Origin: an uncultured Emergencia sp.
GTDB taxonomy: Bacteria > Bacillota > Clostridia > Peptostreptococcales > Anaerovoracaceae
DNA: 64,000 nt
NCBI GenBank assembly: GCA_904420065.1
Contig: CAJFTU010000006.1
Span: forward strand, 1-64,000
Direction of reading: 5' to 3'
Numbering within the stretch: position 1 is the stretch's first letter; every line of letters begins with the position of its first letter. The notes beneath the pieces were generated by a model. That model had not been told where the DNA came from. It saw only the letters and a list, made by a program, of their open reading frames with translations, and searched no databases. Below, in pieces: positions 2,474 through 43,406 of the stretch. The position numbers were made by a program, and so were the translations under genes.

Positions 2474-4462
2474 TTATTCTGCCGAATCTTCTGCGTCGGC
2501 AACCGGTTCGGAAACTGCTTCCGCATCTTCCTCCGGAATAGCCTGGTCGTCAGCATCCAGAGTCTCCTTGATGCTCAGGCTGATTCTCTTTCTCTCTTTA
2601 TCGATTTCCAGAATTTTGGCTTTGACTTCCTGACCGATGGACAACTCGTCAGCGATATTGTTGACTCTCTTGTGGGCAACCTCGGAAATATGTACAAGTC
2701 CGTCAAGACCAGGTTCCAGTTCTACGAAAGCACCGTATTCTTTGATCTGTACGACTTTTCCGTTTACAACCTGTCCAACCTGATAGTTCTCTTCGATCAC
2801 GGACCATGGTTCCGGAATCGTCTGCTTCAGTCCAAGAGAAATCTTTCCTTTTTCTTCGTTCATGGAAAGGATCTTAACCTTAACCTTGTCACCGATCTGC
2901 AGAACTTCCTGCGGATGTTTCAGCTTGCCCCAGGATATCTCAGAAATGTGAAGCAATCCGTCGATTCCGCCCAGGTCGACAAAAGCGCCGTAGTCGGTAA
3001 AGCGCATAACTGTACCTTCCACGATATCGTCCACGTGCAAACTTTCCCATATAGCGGCAATCTTCTTCTGCTTTTCTTCGTTGAGCACAATCTTGTGGGA
3101 GAATACAGCTCTGCCCCTTCTCTGATCAACTCTCGTGACCTTTACATCGAGAACCTGTCCGATAAATTCATCTGCGTTTTCGACAAACTTATCCGACAGC
3201 TGAGAAAGCGGAATAAAACCGGTAACTTCTTTGTAAGCCGCGATCACGCCGCCGTTAACCTGTCTTATTACCTTCACAGTGATAATAGATTTATTTTCAA
3301 GAGCTTCGCTAATTTCATTCCATTGCTCGTTAATTTCCAGCTTTTTCTTTGAAAGTAAGATTCCACCGTCGCCGTCATCAGTCTTGATAACCTTCGCCTG
3401 AATCTCATCGCCTTCTTTAAATAAATCAGTTAACTTCTGTCCTTCCTCTAAAGTTACTTCTTCCACAGGAAGAATACCGTCCTTTTTGCAACCCATGTTT
3501 ACGATGACTTCTTTATCCGTTACCTGGTGTACTTTACCATCAACGATTTCGCCAGTGCGAGGTAGTCTCAAAGACGCGTCGATCTCCTCCATGAAATCTT
3601 CCATAGAATTTTTTTCGTTAGTGATCATTTCACTCATGTTAGCAATAACCTCCTTAATCACGCATTCGGGCGTTGATGCACCCGCTGCAACTCCTATTCT
3701 ATTACATTTTTGTAATTGTTTCAATGGTAAATCTTCAATATTTTCGACAAAAAAGGTTTTTTTACAGTTTTTTTTGGCAATTTCAAATAGTTTTTGCGTG
3801 TTTGAGCTGTTTTTCCCTCCGATGATCACCATCGCATCGACGGTTCTTGACAATTTCTCACACGAATTTTGTCGATCCCGAGTGGCGCTGCAGATGGTGT
3901 CTCGCATTTCCATATCGATTCCCTTTCTTGTGAATACGGAGACGATTTCATCGAACAGCTGCCTCTTAATGGTCGTCTGGCACACGAGAAATACAGAACT
4001 CTCTTCCACTTTTTCCGCTTCCTCTCGACTGCCTACGACGATGGTTTTTCCTCTGCACCAGCCTCTTATACCGATGACTTCCGGATGATCTCCGTTTCCG
4101 GCGATAACCACCGTTTTTCCCCTATCGCTTGCTTCTTCGGCCAGCTTGTGAATCCTGTCGACAAACGGGCAGGTTGCGTCGACGATATGGATGCCTTTCT
4201 CTTCTGCCCGCTGAAAAAAGTCCCTCGTCTCGCCGTGAGAGCGGACGATAACCGTATCGCCGGCTTCTGCTTCTTCTATGCTGTCGATGATGCTCACGCC
4301 TCTTCGCTCCAGATCATCTGTGACAAACCGGTTGTGAATCAGCGGGCCGCAGGTGTAAATGCGCCCTTCGCTTCGCTTTTCTATCTGATTATCTGTCATA
4401 TCGATGGCCTGCTTTACACCGAAGCAGAATCCCGCATGTTCAGCTCTGATTATTTCTGCCAT
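2474..4462 (-). CDS. ispH-rpsA: Bifunctional 4-hydroxy-3-methylbut-2-enyl diphosphate reductase / 30S ribosomal protein S1
   Basis: N-terminal IspH (AEHAGFCFGVKQAID, PECVIKEV) fused to four S1 repeats; this fusion is known in Clostridia. Confidence 0.93.
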   Translation of the reverse strand: MAEIIRAEHAGFCFGVKQAIDMTDNQIEKRSEGRIYTCGPLIHNRFVTDDLERRGVSIIDSIEEAEAGDTVIVRSHGETRDFFQRAEEKGIHIVDATCPFVDRIHKLAEEASDRGKTVVIAGNGDHPEVIGIRGWCRGKTIVVGSREEAEKVEESSVFLVCQTTIKRQLFDEIVSVFTRKGIDMEMRDTICSATRDRQNSCEKLSRTVDAMVIIGGKNSSNTQKLFEIAKKNCKKTFFVENIEDLPLKQLQKCNRIGVAAGASTPECVIKEVIANMSEMITNEKNSMEDFMEEIDASLRLPRTGEIVDGKVHQVTDKEVIVNMGCKKDGILPVEEVTLEEGQKLTDLFKEGDEIQAKVIKTDDGDGGILLSKKKLEINEQWNEISEALENKSIITVKVIRQVNGGVIAAYKEVTGFIPLSQLSDKFVENADEFIGQVLDVKVTRVDQRRGRAVFSHKIVLNEEKQKKIAAIWESLHVDDIVEGTVMRFTDYGAFVDLGGIDGLLHISEISWGKLKHPQEVLQIGDKVKVKILSMNEEKGKISLGLKQTIPEPWSVIEENYQVGQVVNGKVVQIKEYGAFVELEPGLDGLVHISEVAHKRVNNIADELSIGQEVKAKILEIDKERKRISLSIKETLDADDQAIPEEDAEAVSEPVADAEDSAE

Positions 4463-9245: not shown

Positions 9246-9361
9246 CAGCTGTTCAAATCCTTAAACGTGTTGTTGACAAATTCCGTTATCTCCGTTCTGA
9301 AGATCAGTCCTATGGCGACGGCCAGCGCGATAAGAATCGCCACCTGCACCTTCTCACACAT
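9245..9361 (-). pseudogene. 3' part of Flp-like pilin gene, separated from its 5' part by the prophage; ATG supplied from prophage DNA gives MCEKVQVAILIALAVAIGLIFRTEITEFVNNTFKDLNS
   Basis: Manual translation; continuous with the 5' fragment at 43359-43406 through the 15-bp core. Confidence 0.9.
9336..9350. repeat. Left attachment core, ATCGCCACCTGCACC
   Basis: Exact 15-bp match to 43363-43377; flanking bases differ on both sides. Confidence 0.93.
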
Positions 9362-9627: not shown

Positions 9628-9999
9628 TTATCTGAAATTGTTAAATTCTTTTATGATATCTTCAGCAGCTTCCCCGTTTTCTAACCTCTTCCCTACTTTC
9701 TCTATGCTCTCCGTCATATCTTCTAAGTCCCCACAGCTGAGGGAGTAGTCGCCAAGATATAGTGTCCAGTACTTTCCTTCTTTTCTTAAGATCAAATCAT
9801 CTTTCATTATCGTCATGTTTTTTTCCTCGCTTTTCATATTTTCTATTTTTTCAACAATCAGATCTTCAACATATTTCGCTGGTTTCCGTTCCCCAGTTTC
9901 CCAGTTTCCTATTGTCCTTTTCGGAATCCTAAAAAGTTTCGACATTTCTTCTTGTGTAATACCTGCTGATTTACGTGCTTCTTTAATCCTGTTTTCCAT
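9628..9999 (-). CDS. XRE-family HTH protein
   Basis: MENRIKEARKSAGITQEEMSKLFRIPKRTIGNWETGERKP; start chosen at 9999 with RBS GGAGG. Confidence 0.8.
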   Translation of the reverse strand: MENRIKEARKSAGITQEEMSKLFRIPKRTIGNWETGERKPAKYVEDLIVEKIENMKSEEKNMTIMKDDLILRKEGKYWTLYLGDYSLSCGDLEDMTESIEKVGKRLENGEAAEDIIKEFNNFR

Positions 10000-10098
10000 T
10001 TCTCTTCCTCCGATATAGATAAATCGCCCTAATTCCTTGCACAATGCCTATTGATATAAAAGCAATGCCCATATAATATAGTATTCCATGCATAATCG

Positions 10099-10127
10099 TT
10101 GACACATGATTTTCTATCGGGTATAGT
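10099..10127 (+). promoter_or_regulatory. Strong candidate sigma-A promoter, antisense to a small hydrophobic peptide gene
   Basis: TTGACA-N17-TATAGT. Confidence 0.75.
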
Positions 10128-10133
10128 ATAGGT

Positions 10134-10258
10134 GGAACGGGGCCGAAGCCCCTGTTCATATTATGTACTTATCAATAAGTAGTAATATGGTTCCAACCAC
10201 AAGAGCTGATATTGACTGGATCGCTACATCTCTTAAGTCTATCGGCTCTTTTCTTTTA
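10134..10258 (+). ncRNA. Candidate antisense (type I antitoxin) RNA
   Basis: Follows TTGACA-N17-TATAGT and ends at a 10-bp stem (AGAGCTGATA/TATCGGCTCT) followed by TTTCTTTT; complementary to the 38-aa ORF. Confidence 0.6.
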
Positions 10259-10272
10259 TCGTGTTTACCCAT
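10156..10272 (-). CDS. Small hydrophobic peptide, candidate type I toxin: MGKHDKRKEPIDLRDVAIQSISALVVGTILLLIDKYII
   Basis: Manual translation; AAAGGAGG upstream, basic N-terminus plus single TM; GGGGC-ttcg-GCCCC hairpin downstream. Confidence 0.65.
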   Translation of the reverse strand: MGKHDKRKEPIDLRDVAIQSISALVVGTILLLIDKYII

Positions 10273-10383
10273 TCATGTGTTTTCCTCCTTTCTTTAATTA
10301 TATTATATCACTCGTTGAGTGATACGTCAAGCAGTATTTATTAATTTTTCAACATTTTCAATAAAAAAGAGGGGCACAAGCCC

Positions 10384-11295
10384 CTAAATAAACGTTACAT
10401 ATTTACCGGTTATCGTGATCCAGCCTGCTGCCGTTTTCCCCCGCGTTCCGTCACGGGATATCTGCGTGATCTTATACTGTCCGTCCAGCGATCCCGATTT
10501 TTTCGATCCCAGGCTGGCCGTTTCCCGTACCAGCAGTTTCATTTTGGTCTGAATGGTAAAGGTCGAATCCGTGCTGACCAGATTAACATACTTCGGCGTT
10601 ACCGTGATCCAGCCAGCCGATGTTTTCCCCCGTGTTCCATCAGCAGATAATTCCGTTATTCGATACACGCCGTTTTTATCCAGCGTCCCTATCTTTTTCG
10701 ATTTCAGACTGGCTGATTTTCGGATCAGCAAATTCATTTTCGGTTTGATCAAAAACGAAAAATCCATGCCGAAATAATCGCACAGTCCCCGGGCTAACGC
10801 TAACCCGTAACGTTTAGGGTTATTTTGAAACCGTTTCAAATCGGATTTTATACTGCCCGTTTCAAATATGCAGGCCGTTGCGTTGGTGTTCGTCAGTTCG
10901 CCCAGCGTTTTACTGGCATGTAACCCTCGCGTTTTCAGATTCATCATTTTCATTACTGACTGATTCAGACTGCTGGCCAGCTTTTTTCCTTCTTTGCTGC
11001 CGGTATAATAATAGGGATAAGTGCCTGTAGGCGCGCCGCTGTAATCGCAATGCAGGGAAATGTATGCGTCTACGCCAATTCGATTCGCCTCCCGGATACA
11101 GGCGTTCATATTCTGATGTCGGTCGGTCGTTGAATCCGTATACACGGTGATCCCATTATATCTGGCGAACCGGACAAATGCCCGCGTGATCGGCAGCATT
11201 AAATCCGCTTCGGTGTGTGATCCGTAAACACAGCCTGGATCCCAGCTGCCGTTATCGCTCACGCCGTGCCCGCAGGCGATGTAAACCTTACTCAT
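10384..11295 (-). CDS. N-acetylmuramoyl-L-alanine amidase (endolysin) with two C-terminal SH3-like repeats
   Basis: VYIACGHGVSDNGSWDPGCVYGSHTEADLML...YISLHCDYS...; repeats MNLLIRKSASLKSKKIGTL / MKLLVRETASLGSKKSGSL. Confidence 0.88.
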   Translation of the reverse strand: MSKVYIACGHGVSDNGSWDPGCVYGSHTEADLMLPITRAFVRFARYNGITVYTDSTTDRHQNMNACIREANRIGVDAYISLHCDYSGAPTGTYPYYYTGSKEGKKLASSLNQSVMKMMNLKTRGLHASKTLGELTNTNATACIFETGSIKSDLKRFQNNPKRYGLALARGLCDYFGMDFSFLIKPKMNLLIRKSASLKSKKIGTLDKNGVYRITELSADGTRGKTSAGWITVTPKYVNLVSTDSTFTIQTKMKLLVRETASLGSKKSGSLDGQYKITQISRDGTRGKTAAGWITITGKYVTFI

Positions 11296-11551
11296 TTTCT
11301 TCCACTTCCTCGTCGTATTCTACCGTTTCATCTTTCTGGTCTTTGATCCCTTTGGTCGTCGGGTCTACAAATACACCCAGAACGGCAATGGCCACGCTGA
11401 ACAGCAGAAACGGATTTTTGACCAGATCCACTGCAGCGGATACAACCATGTCCCAGCTGGTTAGTGTCTCCGGACTGATTCCCATTGCAGTTAAAATGAC
11501 ACCGATCAGTCCAATCCAGAAATACGGGTTTTTGTAACGATTCGTTTTCAT
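11288..11551 (-). CDS. Phage holin (phi LC3-like)
   Basis: MKTNRYKNPYFWIGLIGVILTAMGISPETLTSWDMVVSAAVDLVKNPFLL; adjacent to the amidase. Confidence 0.8.
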   Translation of the reverse strand: MKTNRYKNPYFWIGLIGVILTAMGISPETLTSWDMVVSAAVDLVKNPFLLFSVAIAVLGVFVDPTTKGIKDQKDETVEYDEEVEENE

Positions 11552-11609
11552 GTATTTTCTCCTTTCACATAAAAACCCTGCCATATCGGCAGGGTAAATT
11601 GATCTGTTA

Positions 11610-43358: not shown

Positions 43359-43406
43359 TTATATCGCCACCTGCACCATTTCCATCCCCTTCTTGTTCGT
43401 TAACAT
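43359..43406 (-). pseudogene. 5' part of Flp-like pilin gene truncated by the prophage (MLTNKKGMEMVQVAI*)
   Basis: RBS GGAGG-aagcat-ATG; continues in frame into 9245-9350 after prophage removal. Confidence 0.9.
43363..43377. repeat. Right attachment core, ATCGCCACCTGCACC
   Basis: Exact match to 9336-9350. Confidence 0.93.

Follow-up and report, generated by a model that had tools for sequence, protein, structure and literature searches.

The question raised by this locus is whether a 38-aa membrane peptide gene and a consensus promoter that faces it, both carried by a prophage of an uncultured Emergencia sp., form a type I toxin-antitoxin (TA) module or are common signals that happen to coincide. 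The locus lies in the stretch of 64,000 nucleotides analysed here (contig CAJFTU010000006.1; hereafter the window), and a previous sequence-only reading had taken it for a two-part type I TA locus. From comparison with homologous loci we consider it likely that the cassette is a prophage-borne type I-like TA module with an additional, operon-encoded DNA-binding autorepressor. The proposed type I organisation is strongly supported by this comparative evidence; the two-part description is not, as the operon also holds a second small gene, ORF2, and a gene for an Xre-type helix-turn-helix (HTH) regulator.

The putative toxin gene is the first of its operon and is followed by an RNA hairpin, ORF2 and the Xre gene. 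It occupies 10272-10156 on the minus strand and encodes a Lys-rich N-terminus and then a hydrophobic C-terminus with one hydrophobic helix, an assignment backed by homologues and profile matches. The gene had been proposed together with its Shine-Dalgarno (SD) sequence and a downstream GGGGC-ttcg-GCCCC hairpin, and all of these are present. The SD, AAAGGAGG (CCTCCTTT in forward-strand letters), lies at 10284-10291 and is identical in all homologues bar L067, which has AAGTGAGGT. The stable hairpin, GGGGC-UUCG-GCCCC as RNA, stands 3′ of the toxin stop codon (10135-10157, minus strand) without a U-tract, and homologues have GAAA, GCAA or CGAG as the tetraloop in place of UUCG. The toxin-operon promoter, read from the sequence as TTGACG-N17-TATAAT with an extended -10 (10330-10302, minus strand), had gone unmentioned, as had the palindrome within it, ORF2, the Xre gene and the prophage context; all homologues have TTGAC[A/T/G]-N17-TATAAT in its place. 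A three-codon ORF, ATGAATGGGTAA (ATG-AAT-GGG-TAA; 10265-10276, minus strand), overlaps the toxin start, and its own ATG is better placed relative to the SD than that of the toxin. It is kept as ATG[A/G]ATG[G/A]GTAA in all Emergencia-type copies, is absent from L057, L058 and L067, and may act as a translational brake that lowers toxin production. None of the families in Pfam, PHROGs, NCBIfam or PADLOC matched the peptide above noise, and family searches found no sequence relation to txpA, bsrG or another known type I toxin, in keeping with the original remark that the locus resembles txpA/ratA and bsrG/SR4 in organisation only.

Facing the operon is the plus-strand promoter TTGACA-N17-TATAGT, at 10099-10127 as the sequence-only reading had it, and every tabulated homologue has TTGACA, a spacer of exactly 17 bp and TANNNT. 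L057 and L058 retain this promoter although there it lies away from the ORF2 start codon, so its conservation does not simply follow from that of ORF2. The antisense RNA predicted from it is about 125 nt long (10133-10258, plus strand, ends approximate) and by position is perfectly complementary to the post-stop hairpin and to most of the toxin message. The intrinsic terminator that had been placed inside the peptide gene is indeed there, with limits that needed revision: it spans 10201-10258 on the plus strand with an 11-bp stem (arms 10201-10211 and 10240-10250) and a U-rich tail (10251-10258), rather than 10202-10254 with a 10-bp stem. The tail is the complement of the toxin's Lys/Arg-rich 5′ codons, and a stem of at least 11 bp with a U-rich tail lies antisense to every peptide gene of the family, with one mismatch in L003. 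At the level of sequence, the locus has both a small hydrophobic toxin ORF with its own promoter and ribosome-binding site and a cis-encoded antisense RNA with its own promoter and terminator, as expected of a type I TA system.

The terminator and the RNA fold exceed what coding constraint accounts for. Each toxin gene was recoded synonymously 500 times and the recodings were scored for reaching the observed terminator stem, which none did for the window, L002, L008 or the divergent copy L012b (0/500 each), and few did for L012 (1/500), L005 (3/500), L057 (18/500) and L067 (26/500); L003, with a T.T mismatch in its stem, failed the strict test (113/500). Between lineages, base pairs of the stem are altered on both sides, i.e. 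by compensatory changes. These were counted on hand-anchored arms, as MAFFT alignments misregister the stems and so gave no covariance model, and the arms were picked as best stems, which makes the pairing count partly circular and leaves the recoding test as the unbiased one. The predicted window RNA folds with z = -5.0, no shuffle being equally good, and the RNA is structured in 7 homologues; z ranged from -3.6 to -6.0 in the homologues tested besides the window, and in those tested the fold energy is below that of most or all synonymous recodings. In the predicted fold of Emergencia-type copies, the 5′ end is paired (GGAAC/GUUCC or GAC/GUC) so as to enclose hairpins 1 and 2 in a three-way junction, and the terminator comes after it. 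Rfam covariance models of antitoxin RNA families gave only a sub-threshold chance match elsewhere.

These results bear directly on the reading that a small ORF in a three-gene operon has by chance acquired a fortuitous plus-strand promoter and stem. Matches to sigma-70-like promoters are common enough (5 found against 5.7 expected in a 2.8-kb region), but promoter, spacing, terminator and fold are all conserved across diverged copies, and on the conservation and recoding tests we reject chance as scarcely credible. A convergent promoter combined with an internal antisense terminator occurs in 30 of the 107 SD-preceded small membrane ORFs found in 594 kb scanned, and each of these 30 belongs to the window cassette family. 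The window itself contains two SD-preceded small membrane ORFs, only the 38-aa gene having both features.

Intact copies share one order: promoter with a palindrome in its spacer, SD, peptide of 35-41 aa, post-stop hairpin, convergent promoter, ORF2 and Xre. Peptide homologues of 39-54% identity occur in four other Emergencia genomes, and the cassette is present in 5/13 genomes of this genus, the window included. Whole-cassette DNA identity is mostly 47-61% among the main lineages, rising to 77% for L012/L005 and 94% for L002/L003. Leader-pattern scans recovered the same loci together with IMG/VR contigs and one further genus, while profile searches reached another genus of the same family, in which the toxin frame has decayed, and two genomes from a different family of the same class; the cassette thereby reaches two genera of the same family besides Emergencia. 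An Xre-anchored search added the phage contigs L067-L070. Weak profile matches inside long ORFs were discarded, and L056 (G803), which looks degraded, was left out. In a phylum-wide sample of 398 genomes the cassette was found in the window genome only, tblastn against phage and plasmid records gave no match, and a second copy sought within the window gave none; a relaxed leader pattern run on viral contigs returned 15 unrelated loci besides three known copies. That the conserved cassette is a real module is strongly supported.

The genes downstream of the toxin add a second layer to this module. ORF2 (9983-10105, minus strand) encodes a 40-aa membrane peptide from a GTG start that overlaps the antisense -35; its length and its start context, [G/A/T]TG-TCA, are conserved among homologues. 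A 58-aa frame from 10159, considered as a translationally coupled gene, was rejected, since homologues place the start of ORF2 at an internal GTG/ATG/TTG-TCA, at 10105. ORF2 is under purifying (coding) selection: substitutions between close copies are mostly synonymous (4 synonymous and 0 nonsynonymous both in L002/L008 and in L057/L058), and the pair L012/L005 has a pS of 0.71 and a pN of 0.16. The last gene (9628-9999, minus strand) encodes the Xre-type HTH regulator, of 123 aa in the window and 62-64 aa in homologues (Pfam HTH_3, 2.4e-9; homologues in A3/A5).

Between the -35 and -10 of the toxin promoter lies a perfect, operator-like palindrome, TCACTCgttGAGTGA (10308-10322), whose letters vary among homologues while its symmetry is maintained; the antisense promoter, unlike the toxin promoter, has none. 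Related Xre genes in phage contigs are preceded by 20 distinct consensus-like promoters, of which 12 have, between their hexamers, a palindrome with arms of 6 bp or more; among control promoters 12/110 have one, 8 of these latter 12 being themselves copies of the window cassette family, and promoters of this type also precede related Xre genes in unrelated phage operons. This distribution is consistent with binding of Xre to the toxin-promoter palindrome. It also brings in a different reading, an anti-defence or superinfection-exclusion moron of the acr-aca kind, in which both membrane peptides would target incoming phage or host defence, Xre would be an Aca-like autorepressor and the antisense RNA would only tune dosage. 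An inverted-repeat promoter core, small genes and an HTH autorepressor are the acr-aca plan (PMC9410906), and phages have related Xre genes, with this type of promoter, after other small ORFs that are not toxin-like. However, small Lys-rich single-helix peptides that have their own antisense RNA are characteristic of type I toxins, PADLOC gave the peptides no match to defence-related families, and we regard the anti-defence reading as unlikely.

The cassette lies within a 34-kb prophage (9336-43377), recognised from its att core and gene content and inserted in an flp-like pilin gene. The 15-bp core ATCGCCACCTGCACC stands at both prophage ends (9336-9350 and 43363-43377), joining the flanks regains the pilin reading frame (MLTNKKGMEMVQVAILIALAVAIGLIFRTEITEFVNNTFKDLNS), and the genes between include those for tail sheath, tape measure, portal, terminase, methyltransferase, holin/endolysin and integrase. 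About 0.65 kb inside the left end, the cassette comes immediately after the genes for holin (11288-11584) and endolysin (10384-11295), a position that would suit an accessory lysis function, with holin/antiholin-like peptides held off in the lysogen by the antisense RNA and Xre. Yet a terminator-like stem separates the endolysin gene from the cassette, which has its own promoter, and homologous cassettes have other neighbours: terminase small-subunit-like genes on the opposite strand in L057, L058 and L067, a recombinase-like gene in L009 and an ImmA/IrrE-like gene in L005. We therefore hold a part in lysis to be very improbable; as its positions and contexts differ from one genome to another, the cassette behaves as an independent moron.

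Several loci at the margins of the family were also recorded. L036 (L036:1-3105) is a decayed copy with a broken toxin frame, in which the antisense promoter and terminator stem are still readable, a point in favour of the type I-like reading; it adjoins a CRISPR-like repeat array (repeat about GTCACGCCTCGCAAGAGGCGTGTGAGTAGAAAT), which recalls the association of type I TA loci with CRISPR in C. difficile. Contig L012 carries a second, strongly diverged cassette, L012b (L012:1-4674, minus strand, reverse-complement index about 3519-4000), with the peptide VGNKKRSKKNKENAATLINLLTSIINLIVALLLLKVNT, a hairpin, a small membrane ORF2 and a ribbon-helix-helix-like regulator replacing Xre. This is the most diverged copy; its antisense terminator has a 13-bp stem and its convergent promoter is not evident. 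At L078:1087-1520 a palindromic promoter, a small membrane peptide, a GC hairpin, a second membrane ORF and Xre follow one another, and the charge order of the peptide is reversed, the hydrophobic part coming first and the Lys-rich part at the C-terminus. In the phage contigs L065, L066, L071, L080 and L088, related Xre genes with palindromic-spacer promoters stand after other small, soluble-looking ORFs (regions that reach from some 400 bases before the Xre match to the match itself); these operons resemble the acr-aca type and could be anti-defence candidates.

The best reading of the cassette is a new family of type I TA modules to which an autorepressor has been added as in acr-aca operons, and from its layout we infer how toxicity, RNA expression and pairing, repression and ORF2 might serve one biological role. 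The 38-aa membrane peptide probably arrests growth through membrane damage. The convergent promoter, if constitutive, would supply the folded antisense RNA, and because this RNA complements the post-stop hairpin and most of the message and terminates in the first codons, its pairing would stop translation, expose the message to RNase III decay, or both. Xre probably binds the palindrome and represses its own operon, while the antisense promoter, lacking the palindrome, would stay on under that repression. If the prophage were lost, both repressors would go with it and toxin mRNA would persist, which would favour maintenance of the lysogen. A fuller version of this scheme, plausible and more tentatively held, is a doubly locked module: a new membrane-toxin family would be under both a structured antisense RNA and an Aca-like autorepressor, the second membrane peptide would be its partner or modulator, and the whole, a phage moron of gut Clostridia, would combine type I TA with acr-aca operon logic.

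If this reading is true, it adds a family of type I toxins without detectable relatives and ties addiction based on RNA to the promoter-palindrome/HTH switch found in phage moron operons. To judge from the open-access literature searched, in which none was found and absence is not proof, the cassette would also be the first type I module to encode a DNA-binding autorepressor of its own. An antisense terminator encoded within the Lys-rich codons of a toxin constrains those codons, and searches could exploit this to recover more such loci that gene callers miss.

In txpA/RatA, bsrG/SR4 and related Bacillus prophage type I systems, a cis-antisense RNA convergent with the gene of a short membrane peptide covers the 3′ part of the toxin message. 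The window cassette likewise pairs such a gene, on a prophage, with a predicted antisense RNA of this kind, but it has no sequence homology to them, its peptide has a Lys-rich N-terminus, its antisense RNA would run from a point past the stop-codon hairpin to an end within the 5′ codons, and its operon runs on into ORF2 and the putative HTH repressor. A short hydrophobic toxin and convergent RNAs also make up the Fst/Ldr family (par of pAD1), which the cassette resembles in these respects; unlike Fst/Ldr, it has a peptide without a Pfam match, no shared bidirectional 3′ terminator, and an antisense terminator within the toxin ORF. The CDxxxx.1-RCd modules of Clostridioides difficile comprise prophage toxins of 34-47 aa with an AGGAGG ribosome-binding site and convergent antisense RNAs, some of them near CRISPR arrays (PMC7699646, PMC6563280), and such modules stabilise a prophage (PMC7699646). 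The window cassette shares their prophage location, small toxin gene and convergent antisense RNA, whereas the hydrophobic N-terminus and positively charged C-terminal tail of the C. difficile toxins (PMC7699646) are reversed in the window peptide, with its Lys-rich N-terminus and hydrophobic C-terminus. A term search of a review of clostridial type I systems returned no mention of a module-encoded repressor or transcriptional regulator. The acr-aca operons, for their part, consist of a strong promoter with an inverted repeat in its core, one or more small genes and a terminal HTH autorepressor, which represses through that inverted repeat (PMC9410906). The window cassette has the same inverted repeat inside the core promoter and the same terminal HTH gene, and differs from acr-aca operons in opening with a membrane peptide gene that has its own predicted, structured antisense RNA.
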